Shown here one piece after another: positions 8,247-14,863 of a stretch of 64,000 nucleotides of DNA. The translations under genes and the position numbers were made by a program. Where the stretch lies: NCBI GenBank assembly GCA_022824495.1, contig JAJDZU010000024.1, forward strand, positions 124,001 through 188,000. Direction: 5' to 3'. A model generated the notes under the pieces. The model was not told where the DNA came from. It saw only the letters and a program-made list of their open reading frames with translations, and did no database searches. Numbering within the stretch: the first letter of the stretch is position 1; each line of letters begins with the position of its first letter. Origin of the DNA: Chloroflexota bacterium. Lineage in GTDB: Bacteria; Chloroflexota; UBA11872.

Positions 8247-8795
8247 ATGAGCGTCGTCCTGGCCCTCGCGCTCGGCATCTCCAGCGGGCTCAACCCCTAT
8301 GTGACGGTGGCGATCACCTCGGTCGTCGCCGCCCGTTCCGACCTGCTGACGCCGGCCCCCGCGTTCGCCTTCGTGGCCTCGACCGGGATGTTCGTTGGCG
8401 CGCTGCTGCTGCTGCCCATCGACATCTTCGCGGACAAATTCCCGGGCAGCGGCGGCCTCATGGACCGCGTGGGCTGGGTGCTGCGGCCGGTCGCCGGCGG
8501 GATCGTCGGCGGCGCGGCCATGGCCGTTGCTGGACCCGGCGTGATCCTGGGGGTGGCGCTTGGCGCCGTCGCGGCGCTGGCCACGCATGCCTTGCGCCTG
8601 CGTACCCGCCGCCGTGTGCAGTGGCGCATGCTCGGCTTCGGCCGGATCGTCTTCGGGGCTTACGGCGATTTCGGTAGCGGCATCGTCGCCATGATCGCGT
8701 TGCTCGTACCCCCGCTTGGCCTCGCCATTGCCGCCGGCCTGCTCATCGCCGCGCTGCTCGTGGACCGCCGCTGGGGCGGCGAGGCGCCGACTTAA
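8247..8795 (+). CDS. DUF4126 family membrane protein
   Basis: The 182-residue hydrophobic protein fits DUF4126: it opens LALGISSGLNPYVTVAIT, has ADKFPGSGGLMDRVGWVLRPVAGGIVGG in the middle, and ends with a Gly-rich membrane helix and a basic tail. Four or five membrane segments are visible. The function of the family is not known. The gene overlaps the convergent pabB stop by 4 bp. Confidence 0.8.
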   Translation: MSVVLALALGISSGLNPYVTVAITSVVAARSDLLTPAPAFAFVASTGMFVGALLLLPIDIFADKFPGSGGLMDRVGWVLRPVAGGIVGGAAMAVAGPGVILGVALGAVAALATHALRLRTRRRVQWRMLGFGRIVFGAYGDFGSGIVAMIALLVPPLGLAIAAGLLIAALLVDRRWGGEAPT

Positions 8796-10276
8796 GCGTC
8801 CGAATCCTCCAAGACGCCCAACGCCTCCAGTACGCCCCGCGCCTTGTGCTGGGTTTCGGCGTATTCCAGGTCCGCGTCCGACTCGGCGACGATCCCGGCT
8901 CCCACGTGCAGGTGGCCGACTCCGTCCCGGCGTTGCACAGTGCGGATTGCCAGGTTGGCCGTCAGCCCGCCGTTGAAGCCCAGCGCGAAGACACTCCCGC
9001 AGTAGGCGCCGCGACGCACCGGCTCCAGCTCGTCGATGATCTGGGAGGCTCGGATCTTCGGCGCGCCCGTAATTGAACCTCCCGGCCAACAGGCCTCGAG
9101 CAGCCTGGCGGCTGACTCGCCGGATCCCAGTTCGCCGCGCACTTCGGAGACCAGCTGCCACACCGTCGGCAGCGCCTCGGTCTGCCAGAGTTCCGGCACG
9201 CTGATCGAGCCCGGGCGGCACACCCGACCGAAGTCGTTACGCAGCACGTCCACGATCATCACGTTTTCCGCCCGGTCCTTGGGACTGGCCCGCAGCCGGG
9301 CTTCGGCGGCGGCGTCCAGGGCCGGAGTTCGGCCGCGCGGAGCGGTGCCCTTGATCGGTCGCGTTCGCGCCCGGCCACGCGGGTCCACACGCAGGAATAA
9401 CTCCGGCGACGCGCTGGCCAGGTCGACGCCATCGGCTTCCAGGTAAGCGCCGAAGGGCGCGGGATGCGCCGCCGCCAGGCGCTGAAAGAGCTCCAGCCCC
9501 GGCTCCGGCGCGTGGAACTCAATCCGCCTCGCCAGGTTCACCTGGTAGCAATCGCCGGCGGCGATGTAGTCCTTCACCGCCGTCACCCAGCGCCCGAACC
9601 GGCGGCGGTCCGCGTTCGTGCGGGCGGTTCGCGGCGCGGGTGGTGGGGTCGACGTCTCGCGCACGCGCAGGCGTGACTGCACCCGAGCGCAAAGGTGGTC
9701 GGGGTCGCGCCCGCCTAGCGAGGTCGCGATGATCCAGCCATCGCCGCTTCGGGCGTCGCGCGCCAGCACCCAGTCGTACACGCCAAACCACATCAGGTCG
9801 GTGGGCAACGGTCCCGGACAGCGCCCCGGCAGGTCTTCAAGCGCGTAAGCGGCGTCGTAGGCGATGTACCCAATGGCCCCGCCGGCAAATGGAGGAATCG
9901 ATTCGTGGGATGTCGGCTCGCCGCGCGGGACGATTGTCTCCAGAGCCGAAAAGCCATTACCCGGGAGCTTGCCGCTGACCTCGGAGACAACGCCCCTGGC
10001 CGTCCAGCGCACTATGTCGACCGGATCGGCTGCCAGGTAGGACCAGCGGCCTTCGCCCGACGTGTCCGATCCGCCCTCCAGCACAGCCAGGCCCGGCAGG
10101 TCTCGAAATCCGTCGGTCAGCAGGCGCAGCGGCGGCAACCCGGCGATTCGCAGCACGCGGCCTGCCTGTCCGTTCGCGTGAATACTGGGCACGATGTCGC
10201 CGGCGCGCGTATCGGACAGGGAGACGTGTGACATGAACGGACGCCGCGAAACCGGGCGCGGAATGGGGCCGCTCAT
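8792..10276 (-). CDS. pabB: Aminodeoxychorismate synthase component I (PabB-like)
   Basis: This is a chorismate-binding enzyme that makes 4-amino-4-deoxychorismate from chorismate and ammonia, the entry to p-aminobenzoate and folate. Visible blocks are YIAAGDCYQVNLARR, SASPELFLRV, RPIKGTAPRG, DVLRNDFGRVC and the C-terminal PGGSITGAPKIRA. The PIKGT lysine (K309) is typical of PabB, where anthranilate synthase has PIAGT, so PabB is preferred over TrpE. No glutamine amidotransferase partner or lyase is adjacent. A start at the second Met (10234) is also possible and would remove 14 unconserved residues. Confidence 0.87.
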   Translation of the reverse strand: MSGPIPRPVSRRPFMSHVSLSDTRAGDIVPSIHANGQAGRVLRIAGLPPLRLLTDGFRDLPGLAVLEGGSDTSGEGRWSYLAADPVDIVRWTARGVVSEVSGKLPGNGFSALETIVPRGEPTSHESIPPFAGGAIGYIAYDAAYALEDLPGRCPGPLPTDLMWFGVYDWVLARDARSGDGWIIATSLGGRDPDHLCARVQSRLRVRETSTPPPAPRTARTNADRRRFGRWVTAVKDYIAAGDCYQVNLARRIEFHAPEPGLELFQRLAAAHPAPFGAYLEADGVDLASASPELFLRVDPRGRARTRPIKGTAPRGRTPALDAAAEARLRASPKDRAENVMIVDVLRNDFGRVCRPGSISVPELWQTEALPTVWQLVSEVRGELGSGESAARLLEACWPGGSITGAPKIRASQIIDELEPVRRGAYCGSVFALGFNGGLTANLAIRTVQRRDGVGHLHVGAGIVAESDADLEYAETQHKARGVLEALGVLEDSDA

Positions 10277-10315
10277 CCTAGCGCCGCCCCGGCAGACGCC
10301 GCCGATTCTCCGGAT

Positions 10316-10331
10316 GTTTCACGTGAAAGAT
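10316..10331. other. parS-like ParB-binding site (one mismatch)
   Basis: TGTTTCACGTGAAAGA matches the bacterial parS consensus TGTTTCACGTGAAACA at 15 of 16 positions, with the palindromic core TTTCACGTGAAA intact. It lies in the divergent spacer between pabB and the AIR-synthase-like gene. A perfect copy is 4.1 kb away. ParB loads at such sites and spreads along DNA for chromosome segregation. Confidence 0.8.
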
Positions 10332-10348: not shown

Positions 10349-11365
10349 ATGAGTCTGCCGACCGGCAAGCTTCCGCTGCCGCTGCTGCGCCAGGCGCTGG
10401 GCCGGGTCCCGCGCCGCGACCCGGCGGTGCTCGTGGGAGCGGAACCGGGCGAGGACGCCGCCGTGATTGATGTCGGCGGTCCGGAACTCCTGGTCGCCGC
10501 CGCCGACCCGATCACCTTCGCGGCCGCCGACATCGGAACCTATCTGCTGGCCGTCAACGGTAACGACCTGGCCGTAATGGGCGCCGAACCGCGATGGCTC
10601 CTGGCCACGGTGCTGGTCCCGGCGGGTACCTCGGCCAACCAGATTCAAGCCCTGCTGGCCGATGTGGCCGAGGCCTGTTCCGCGGCCGGCGTGGCCCTGG
10701 TGGGCGGGCACACCGAGATCACCGACAGCGTGACCTCGCCGATTGTTGCGGGAACACTGCTCGGCACGGTCCACCGCGACGCACTCATTCGCACCTCCGG
10801 CGCGCGCCCGGGCGACGCGCTGTTGCTGGTTGGCGACATCGCAATCGAGGGCACGGCCATCCTGGCAGGCGACCACGCGGATGCGCTGCGGCGTGCCGGG
10901 GTCAGCGAGGCCGACATCCGGACGGGCGCCGCACGGCTCGCCACGCCGGGCATCTCCGTACGTCCGGCGGCCGCCGTCCTGCGGGGCATGGCTGACGTCC
11001 GTTCCATGCACGACCCCACGGAAGGTGGGCTGGCCAGTGCGCTGCACGAAATGGCCGAGGCGGCCAAGGTCGGACTCGCGGTCGATCGGGACGCAGTGCC
11101 CGTACTGCCGGAGTGCCGGCGTATCTGTCGCGCGCTGGGGCTCGACCCCTATGCGCTGCTGGCCTCCGGCGCCCTGCTGGCCAGCCTGCCGGCCAGTCAG
11201 GCTTCCACGGCGCTGACGGCACTTCGAACGGCCGGCTCGACGGCCTCCGTCATCGGCGAAGTCACCGCGGCAGCCGAAGGCAAGCGTTGGACGGTAGGCG
11301 GCCGCGAAGTCCCCATCCCCGCGGTCGAGCGCGACGAACTGGCGCGTTTCCTGGAATCGGTCTGA
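10349..11365 (+). CDS. AIR synthase-related (HypE-like) protein
   Basis: The protein has the PurM/HypE/SelD two-domain layout: [10 protein letters not shown] near the start, [24 protein letters not shown] (the ATP/Mg-binding strand and dimer interface), [22 protein letters not shown], and the C-terminal [17 protein letters not shown] motif. Family members bind ATP and phosphorylate a substrate carbonyl or carboxylate. HypE matures hydrogenases, but here there are no hyp genes nearby and the HypE C-terminal cysteine is absent, so the substrate is unknown. The start ATG follows the parS-like site closely. Confidence 0.8.
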
Positions 11366-12463: not shown

Positions 12464-13501
12464 GTGCGCGTCCTGGTCACCGGCGCGACCGGGAATCTCG
12501 GTCCCTTTGTGATCCAGGCGCTGCGCCACGATGGCCACGAGGTTCGCGCCCTCGTTCGCGAATCCAGCGACCGATCCTGGCTCAACGCCAACCGGGTGGC
12601 GACCGTGGAAGGCGACATTTTGAAGCCGGAAACGTTGGGCGCGGCGGTGGATGGCATGGCCGCTGTGATCCACCTGGCCGGCCTGCACGACTCCTGGGCC
12701 CCGCGCGCGCAGGACTTCTTCGAGCTGAACGTGGATGGGGCCTGCAACGTGCGGGACGCCGCCCGCGAGGCCGGGGCCCACCGCCTGGTGTTCGTCAGCA
12801 GCGGGTCCACGATCGGCGAGGAGGAAGGCGAGGTCGGGACCGAGACCACCGAGCGGCGGGACTACGCGCTCAGCGATTACGAACGCTCCAAGGTCGAGGC
12901 GGAAGCCGCCCTGCTGGAGGACCGGTCGCCACTCGATGTGGTCGTCGTGAATCCTGGAACCGTCTTTGGCCCCGGCGACGCCTCGGGCACGGGCCAGGCG
13001 CTGATTGGGGCGTTGAGTGGCCGCCTGGGCGTGTCTGTTGACGAGCCCGTGGCCTGGATCTACGTGAAGGACATCGCGCGCGGGATTGCGCTGGCCCTGG
13101 TGCGCGGGCGGCCCGGCGAGCGCTACATCCTGGCCAGCCACAACCTGTCGCGGCTCGCCTTTCTGCAGCGCGCGGTGGAACTGGCCGACCTCGAGTACCA
13201 GATCAAACCGGCCTCACCGCTGGCCTGGCAGGCCTTCGGCCTGATTTACAGCCTGCCGGCCTGGATCAGGCGCCAGCGTCCGGTGATCTCGCGGGCGGCG
13301 GTGCAGATTGCGCTGCACGGCAGCCAGCTCGATGGGTCGAAAGCCGAACGCGAACTCGGCCTCACGTATACCGCGCTTGACGACGGCCTCAACGCCACCC
13401 TGGACTGGCTGCACGAGGCCGAACTGGTCGATCTCCCCGAAGAAGACGATGACGAACCGACCGAAAAGGAGCCGTCCGATGGCGATACCCAGCGAGGCTG
13501 A
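12464..13501 (+). CDS. Extended SDR: NAD-dependent epimerase/dehydratase
   Basis: The protein starts with the Rossmann motif VLVTGATGNLGPFV, has AAVIHLAGLHDSW, and carries the catalytic YERSK (Tyr and Lys four apart) after FVSSGSTIG. This is the extended short-chain dehydrogenase/reductase layout, closest to the dihydroflavonol reductase-like/NAD-epimerase group. The substrate is unknown. The C-terminus is an acidic tail (DLPEEDDDEPTEKE). GTG start, 1 bp after the threonine aldolase stop; its 3' end overlaps the following methyltransferase gene by 23 bp. Confidence 0.85.
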   Translation: MRVLVTGATGNLGPFVIQALRHDGHEVRALVRESSDRSWLNANRVATVEGDILKPETLGAAVDGMAAVIHLAGLHDSWAPRAQDFFELNVDGACNVRDAAREAGAHRLVFVSSGSTIGEEEGEVGTETTERRDYALSDYERSKVEAEAALLEDRSPLDVVVVNPGTVFGPGDASGTGQALIGALSGRLGVSVDEPVAWIYVKDIARGIALALVRGRPGERYILASHNLSRLAFLQRAVELADLEYQIKPASPLAWQAFGLIYSLPAWIRRQRPVISRAAVQIALHGSQLDGSKAERELGLTYTALDDGLNATLDWLHEAELVDLPEEDDDEPTEKEPSDGDTQRG

Positions 13502-14359: not shown

Positions 14360-14420
14360 GGTCCCTCCTTCCCACGGGTCACTTCCGTGGGCGCCTGCAC
14401 CTGATCAGAAGGCAGGCAAA

Positions 14421-14436
14421 TGTTTCACGTGAAACA
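14421..14436. other. parS centromere site (perfect consensus)
   Basis: TGTTTCACGTGAAACA is the exact 16-bp parS palindrome bound by ParB/Spo0J across most bacterial phyla. Here the symmetry extends to 20 bp (AATGTTTCACGTGAAACATT, 14419-14438). It is intergenic, between the 55-aa gene and the pterin dehydratase gene. parS sites cluster near the chromosomal origin in most species, so this anchors the window to the primary chromosome and probably to its origin-proximal part. Confidence 0.93.
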
Positions 14437-14483
14437 TTGGGCTCTGACCGCCCGCAGAGGCACCTGTGTCTGGCTCCAGATTA

Positions 14484-14765
14484 CTAACCCGCCAGCCGCT
14501 CGATTTCGTCCAGCAGGGCGAAGTCCTTTTCGGTTACGCCGCCTTCGCTGTGGGTGGAGAGGGTGAAGGTGATGCGCCGGTAGTTGATGAACATGTCGGG
14601 GTGATGGTCGGCGGCCTCGGCCTCGGGGGCCACGGCGTTGACCAGGTTCACCACGGCCATGAAATCTTCCAGCTCGAACTGTTTGACCAGGGCGCCGCCT
14701 TCGCAGGTCCAGCCGGATCGCTCGGCCAACCGCGCCTGGATGTCGTCGTCCGCCAGTAGTGCCAT
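14484..14765 (-). CDS. Pterin-4a-carbinolamine dehydratase
   Basis: The 93-residue protein matches 4a-hydroxytetrahydrobiopterin dehydratase. It has WTCEGGALVKQFELEDFMAVVNLVNAVA and the active-site region AADHHPDMFINYRRITFTL followed by THSEGGVTEKDFALLDEI. The enzyme removes water from 4a-hydroxytetrahydropterin to recycle the cofactor of aromatic amino acid hydroxylases; in bacteria without such hydroxylases it may serve molybdopterin or folate metabolism. A longer frame exists, but the ATG at 14765 has a GGGAGA ribosome-binding site and fits the family length. Confidence 0.9.
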   Translation of the reverse strand: MALLADDDIQARLAERSGWTCEGGALVKQFELEDFMAVVNLVNAVAPEAEAADHHPDMFINYRRITFTLSTHSEGGVTEKDFALLDEIERLAG

Positions 14766-14789
14766 GAGAATCTCCCTATCGAGCGCCTC

Positions 14790-14795
14790 TATAAT
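14790..14795 (+). promoter_or_regulatory. Possible -10 box for epimerase operon
   Basis: A perfect TATAAT stands in GC-rich surroundings 68 bp before the first epimerase start. The -35 region at the expected distance is poor, so this is only a candidate promoter. Confidence 0.35.
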
Positions 14796-14863
14796 CTGCG
14801 CCTCGTAGGCCCAATGTTCCACTCCCCGGCCCTGCGAGCCACCCACATTCGAGACGGACCTTC

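Follow-up and report, generated by a model that had tools for sequence, protein, structure and literature searches.

The window analysed here, a stretch of 64,000 nucleotides from the genome of a Chloroflexota bacterium, carries between two of its genes a palindromic 16-mer that reads as an exact parS, and a near copy of it a few kilobases away. The question raised by this locus is whether the two sequences are genuine chromosome-partition sites and, if so, what they are for. As far as sequence data go, the 16-mer sites are parS by their letters, their linkage, their protein partner and their conservation, and it is very likely that the 16-letter sequence is a genuine chromosome-partition site.

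The two sites, here called A and B, are listed in Table 1 together with their neighbours. Site B matches the chromosomal parS consensus TGTTTCACGTGAAACA at every position. The first-pass annotation of the window had proposed an exact parS in intergenic DNA and its extension to a 20-bp palindrome, and both points were confirmed. The one-mismatch partner that it had described also exists in another intergenic spacer, 4106 bp from site B, but starts at 10315 and not at 10316. Specifically, site A lies in a spacer flanked by divergent genes, which start at positions 10276 and 10349, and both sites are placed between genes with a family match. The crude gene caller left site B intergenic and put site A within a 52-codon open reading frame of low score, which we take to be spurious. 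The accessory-looking mixture of genes that had been reported was not recovered, the neighbours of both sites being ordinary metabolic genes whose order is kept in the congeners.

Table 1. Sites A and B and the features around them in the window; a dot stands where no strand applies.
Feature	Position	Strand	Basis or remark
Chorismate-binding enzyme gene (TrpE/PabB-like), left of site A	8792..10276	-	family match
parS site A, TGTTTCACGTGAAAGA	10315..10330	.	pattern match; single mismatch, last-but-one base
AIR-synthase-related gene (HypE/ThiL/SelD-like), right of site A	10349..11365	+	below NCBIfam cut-offs
NAD-dependent epimerase gene, between sites A and B	12464..13501	+	served as orthology anchor
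Conserved non-coding block surrounding site B	14388..14465	.	alignments, 11 clade genomes
20-bp palindrome enclosing site B, AATGTTTCACGTGAAACATT	14419..14438	.	symmetry broken at 14418/14439
parS site B, exact palindromic 16-mer TGTTTCACGTGAAACA	14421..14436	.	pattern match
4a-Hydroxytetrahydrobiopterin (pterin-4a-carbinolamine) dehydratase gene, right of site B	14484..14846	-	NF002017, above its cut-off

Sites A and B are the only two matches to the 16-mer in the window when up to three mismatches are allowed. In 100 dinucleotide-preserving shuffles of the window the mean number of matches was 0.08, and no shuffle (0/100) gave two. The assembly of the window's genome (G000; 3,365,424 bp in 25 contigs, the window corresponding to C16:124001-188000) contains 9 exact, 3 one-mismatch and 1 two-mismatch sites, whereas the reversed control pattern was found nowhere in it; the view that exact copies are unlikely to occur by chance is upheld by both controls.

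The DnaA and ParB family models each have a sole match in G000 (E up to 0.001), at C16:78457-79791 and C16:77486-77998, respectively. The first-pass annotation had made the parS reading depend on the presence of a ParB gene, and one is indeed encoded: parB (C16:77240-78067) adjoins dnaA (C16:78439-79911), with two perfect TTATCCACA boxes, at 78393 and 78414, between them. Both genes lie 59-60 kb to the left of site B, in agreement with the proposed location near the chromosomal origin. The comparison suggested with dnaA, parAB and GC skew favours the first-pass reading as regards dnaA and parB, which are about 59 kb away, and is weaker for the skew; no parA lies beside parB. Over the 208 kb examined (C16:1-208000), the GC skew is negative up to ~72 kb and close to zero or mixed beyond that point. 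Its cumulative curve changes slope near dnaA and has no clear minimum there; for the concentration of sites near the replication origin the skew is not decisive.

To what extent the sites cluster around dnaA was estimated in two ways. In relatives, marker genes place the left end of C16 and the right end of C7 together on contig C10 of G006; C7 is likewise connected with C13 on contigs C33 of G006 and C12 of G010. Taken together, C16, C7 and C13 (1.01 Mb, 30% of the genome) carry 8 of the 9 exact sites and 11 of the 12 sites with at most one mismatch. These contigs having been selected in part for their sites, a second and less circular estimate considered the parB-bearing contig alone, in 9 of 11 members of the window's clade (G005 and G008 left out; genome sizes rounded): 20 of 111 exact sites fall there against 4.0 expected, the sites being non-independent owing to common descent. 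The copies of the 16-mer are therefore many yet linked to the origin, and not randomly scattered as would speak against the first-pass reading. The ninth exact site of G000, at C3:152605, has no placement relative to dnaA within that genome; its neighbour genes lie ~31 kb from dnaA in the closed but rearranged genome G002. The use of G002 as a scaffold for G000 was given up, its gene order being too rearranged.

The window's clade comprises 11 genomes (G000, G001 and G004-G012); G002 and G003 are other members of the genus, and G013-G018 form the sister genus. The epimerase gene used as anchor was sought in 15 genomes and matched in 12, namely in all 12 of the same genus and in none of 3 of the sister genus. 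Site B is present with at most one mismatch in the same spacer of all 11 clade genomes (9 exact, 2 one-mismatch). Site A is found in 9 of the 10 clade genomes with sequence for its spacer (8 exact, the single one-mismatch copy being that of G000); it is degenerate in G006, and the G007 contig stops before it. No match with up to three mismatches was detected at the site A/B region in the 6.5-7 kb stretches of G002 and G003, each of which tests one locus well, as the G002 stretch is without the genes beside site A and the G003 stretch without the gene to the right of site B. As a separate observation, the epimerase orthologue of G005, G007 and G012 shows one TGA in the aligned range, and perhaps has a shorter C-terminus.

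In five genomes (G000, G001, G004, G006 and G010), 66 of 69 sites with at most one mismatch (57 exact and 9 one-mismatch) were grouped by the similarity of their neighbour genes; the three remaining ones, all one-mismatch, belong to G004 (two) and G006 (one). The 66 sites fall into 20 loci, of which 7 are common to all five genomes and 13, with 56 sites, to at least three, while 5 occur in a single genome. As the sites were chosen by their match, the conservation of the core letters reflects the selection of the data; their recurrence at orthologous loci does not. Among the exact sites of these genomes the base before the 16-mer is A in 53/57 and the base after it is T in 54/57. The crude caller assigned 44 of the 66 sites to intergenic DNA, 7 to the vicinity of a predicted gene start and 15 to the inside of predicted genes, and some of these 15 calls are errors of the caller, for example that on site A of G010.

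Several individual loci deserve mention in their own right. An exact parS occurs at equal offset in cysS of three genomes, at L183 (G001 C61:32958), L169 (G006 C23:7993) and L187 (G010 C8:102409); the cysS of G000 has no parS with up to two mismatches. L010 (G000 C13:89790) and L177 (G001 C46:106832) are one-mismatch sites with a common offset in a predicted gene of 779 aa, for which no NCBIfam match was found at E up to 1e-20. At L196, two exact parS stand 61 bp apart in one spacer (G010 C21:16346 and 16407), seen in G010 only among the five genomes. Finally, the two-mismatch copy of G000, L013 (C16:67752-67767), lies ~11 kb from dnaA, and its flanking genes resemble in orientation and size those beside an exact parS shared by G001, G004, G006 and G010; it is probably a decayed site.

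Around site B, the block given in Table 1 is conserved beyond the parS core in all 11 clade genomes, and the sequence farther out differs. A structured RNA in this block was considered and rejected: the window had no Rfam match at gathering scores, and none of 23 predicted pairs (8 of 11 sequences) showed compensatory changes. Extended palindromes around parS, as in a terminator or cruciform, were likewise rejected, since at 11 of 12 offsets the complementarity of the flanks of the 57 exact sites was not above that of shuffles; offset 7 exceeded them (18/2000 shuffles as high), but no longer after related flanks had been removed (769/2000; 22 sites).

The putative partner of these sites is the ParB encoded beside dnaA. 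In G000 it contains the N-terminal (ParB_N), helix-turn-helix (HTH_ParB) and dimerisation (ParB_C) domains, its alignment shows the GERRWRA motif, and its best solved relative is the Caulobacter ParB 6t1f (E 1.5e-43); the nearest named ParBs come from Chloroflexota MAGs. We then read the specificity positions 173, 179, 184 and 201 of Jalal et al. 2020 (PMC7383237), with Caulobacter numbering for 201. In that study R173 and G201 are described as absolutely conserved in ParB; G201 is also described as not required for parS binding in laboratory variants, S201 being allowed among parS-specific ones. The G000 protein has R, T, K and S at the four positions, that is, a serine in place of G201. Among 50 aligned ParBs (of 54 matches; the second matches of G048 and G060, G056 and the G035 fragment were left out), R173 is present in 50/50, and residue 201 is serine in 11, which are all 11 clade genomes (9 RTKS, 1 RTQS, 1 RSKS), and glycine in the other 39. 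S201 lies outside the conservation of G201 reported in PMC7383237 and, going by that statement, would be new.

Of 41 genomes in which the sites with at most one mismatch were counted, the 11 with S201 are the ones that have 7-23; the G201 genomes include G002 (2 sites), G003 (0 sites) and the sister genus (1-4 sites). In a midpoint-rooted tree of 26 ParB rows, the S201 group forms one side of a branch with support 100/99 and stands next to G002 (94/92) and then G003 (96/91), whose branches are long.

The surroundings of parB differ across the same genomes. The sister-genus genomes have a P-loop gene of the parA type beside parB in 6/6 cases, with parA directly before parB in the loci viewed, and their parS (5 exact, 1 one-mismatch) begins 1-2 bases past the stop codon of parB. 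G003 has a P-loop gene beside parB and, 10 bases after parB, the sequence AGTTTCACGTGAAACG with two mismatches, both in the outer pair. No P-loop gene was found in the 3-3.8 kb around parB in any of the 11 S201 clade genomes or in G002; of the 25 loci scanned in all, that of G033 (another family, G201, 3 sites) gave the same result. With no parA beside parB, the system is filed as ParB-parS and not as a complete ParABS. In addition, of the 11 clade genomes, G004, G007 and G011 keep an exact parS after parB. In the other 8 this site has decayed or is gone: it differs from the consensus by two mismatches in G005, G009 and G012, and no recognisable copy remains in G000, G001, G006, G008 and G010, nor in G002 outside the clade. 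What the clade carries is 5-22 exact parS per genome, dispersed. SMC is full length in 5/5 genomes searched.

The copies being numerous, they might be thought of as chance matches or as copies of a mobile element. This origin is refuted by the shuffles and the reversed control, which put the chance level far too low, by the flanks, which differ among loci (22 flank classes in the 57 exact sites), and by the placement of the copies at orthologous loci; its probability is negligible. The palindromes might instead be operators bound by some transcription regulator that has nothing to do with ParB, a reading that would suit the divergent promoter spacer of site A and the many intergenic sites. It is very improbable, as the 16-mer, exact or with one mismatch, is found 1-2 bases past the parB stop in 9 of the 19 genomes of the family examined, and one conserved locus is inside cysS.

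The other alternatives accept ParB as the binding protein and differ in what it would do. The dispersed sites, together with K184 and S201, could indicate a division inhibitor acting in Noc-like nucleoid occlusion: the sites span a wide arc, and K184 and T/S201 have been seen in laboratory-made dual-specificity or NBS-binding variants (PMC7383237). The G000 protein, however, has R, T, K and S where Noc has Q173, K179, K184 and R201, and scores 184 with the Noc model TIGR04285 against a cut-off of 315, less than the G201 ParBs of G002, G003 and G013 (193, 206 and 203). The sites themselves are exact parS, and the NBS-covering pattern TRTTTCBCGNGAAAYA has no match in G000 and 3 single-arm matches in 18 genomes. 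We regard a Noc-like role as unlikely. A dual use of parS and NBS was also dropped for want of NBS-like sites as defined by that pattern, which does not include changes at position 1 only. A classical ParABS would be retained if a distant ParA-family protein, encoded at C16:318128 in G000, partnered ParB; the origin domain would then be moved by ParA, with the array in the service of that movement. G000, G006, G010 and G002 do keep a ParA-family ATPase that has a P-loop. Against its being the partner, the gene is ~240 kb from parB, none of the listed NCBIfam matches of its product attains the cut-off, and the product is 74% identical to the second ParA of G013 but only 35% to the par-operon ParA of that genome; going by these identities, it looks like an orthologue of the second ParA, which coexists with the par-operon ParA. 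We consider this explanation possible but doubtful. G000 has, besides, a weak PF13614 match at C7:158861, in a search that covered 5 genomes.

In conclusion, we favour the reading, with a probability of roughly 0.8, that the window sites are functional chromosomal parS belonging to an array at fixed loci around dnaA, with ParB clamp loading and SMC recruitment as the predicted activities. ParB is known to load on DNA as a CTP clamp, to slide and to recruit SMC. On this model, the single ParB encoded beside dnaA would bind each site through its helix-turn-helix domain and close on parS as a CTP clamp; the clamped protein would slide outward, thereby marking the origin domain, and would recruit SMC. 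Since parA is not found beside parB, the main output would most likely be SMC loading and the organisation of the origin domain, rather than ParA-driven movement. The window pair would accordingly be predicted sites of ParB loading, whose role is probably more in the loading of SMC than in segregation driven by ParA.

We infer, in addition, a functional link between the G201S change and the increase in parS number; S201, the loss of parA and the number of parS changed on one lineage, so that the link is a correlation of n = 1. A broader and frankly tentative proposal is that of a natural S201 class of ParB, separated from ParA, which may have co-evolved with a multiplied parS array at fixed loci. 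S201, mostly with K184, might make the recognition of parS or the release of the clamp weaker, or tune it differently, and many dispersed loading sites might replace one strong parB-linked centromere, giving a ParA-independent SMC-loading domain of roughly a megabase.

By the count of its sites alone, the clade does not stand out among well-studied species: according to Table 1 of PMC7022226, B. subtilis has 10 parS (8 in the ori domain), S. coelicolor 21 and M. xanthus 22. The B. subtilis ParB (Spo0J)-parS system shares with the clade the same 16-mer consensus and some ten sites, mostly in the ori domain; SMC loading is described for it and predicted for the clade. It differs by having soj (parA) and a G201 ParB (6sdk alignment), whereas the clade has S201 and lacks a parA next to parB. 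S. pneumoniae offers a precedent, with ParB and parS but no parA, and its parB mutant has decreased SMC loading (PMC7022226, Table 1); there the sites are 4, while in the clade they are 5-22 exact ones, many of them spread over a wide arc at loci that several species share. Noc-NBS involves a related protein, and the K184 and polar residue 201 of the clade resemble the intermediate variants of PMC7383237, but the clade sites are parS, G000 has no NBS, and the ParB stays below the Noc cut-off. A further comparison is with the sister genus, of the same Chloroflexota family and with parB beside dnaA in G013, in which, unlike in the clade, parA precedes parB, parS follows the parB stop, and the sites at up to one mismatch total 1-4.

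In the phylum at large, the exact 16-mer is absent from 122 of 201 Chloroflexota genomes, and at least 5 copies occur in 11 of the 201: all 8 clade members sampled (5-22 copies), and, outside the family, G116 (18), G200 (14) and G214 (6). The last three counts indicate that a high number of parS arose elsewhere in the phylum too. In G116, six exact parS lie within 1.2 kb (C34:39288-40446), and ParB was not found in the 28 stretches examined. A literature search, mostly at the level of abstracts, returned no reports of such parS arrays in Chloroflexota.

What is new here is that four traits occur together: S201, a parB with no parA next to it, an array of parS dispersed over conserved loci, and a decayed parB-linked site. 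All together, these genomes form an apparent stepwise natural series, leading from parA-parB-parS (the sister genus and G003), through a parB with no parA beside it (G002), to G201S with many parS. The series lies within one Chloroflexota family and makes two questions testable with purified proteins: what effect residue 201 has in nature on parS recognition and CTP clamping, and whether the loss of ParA frees ParB-parS to act as a distributed SMC-loading array.
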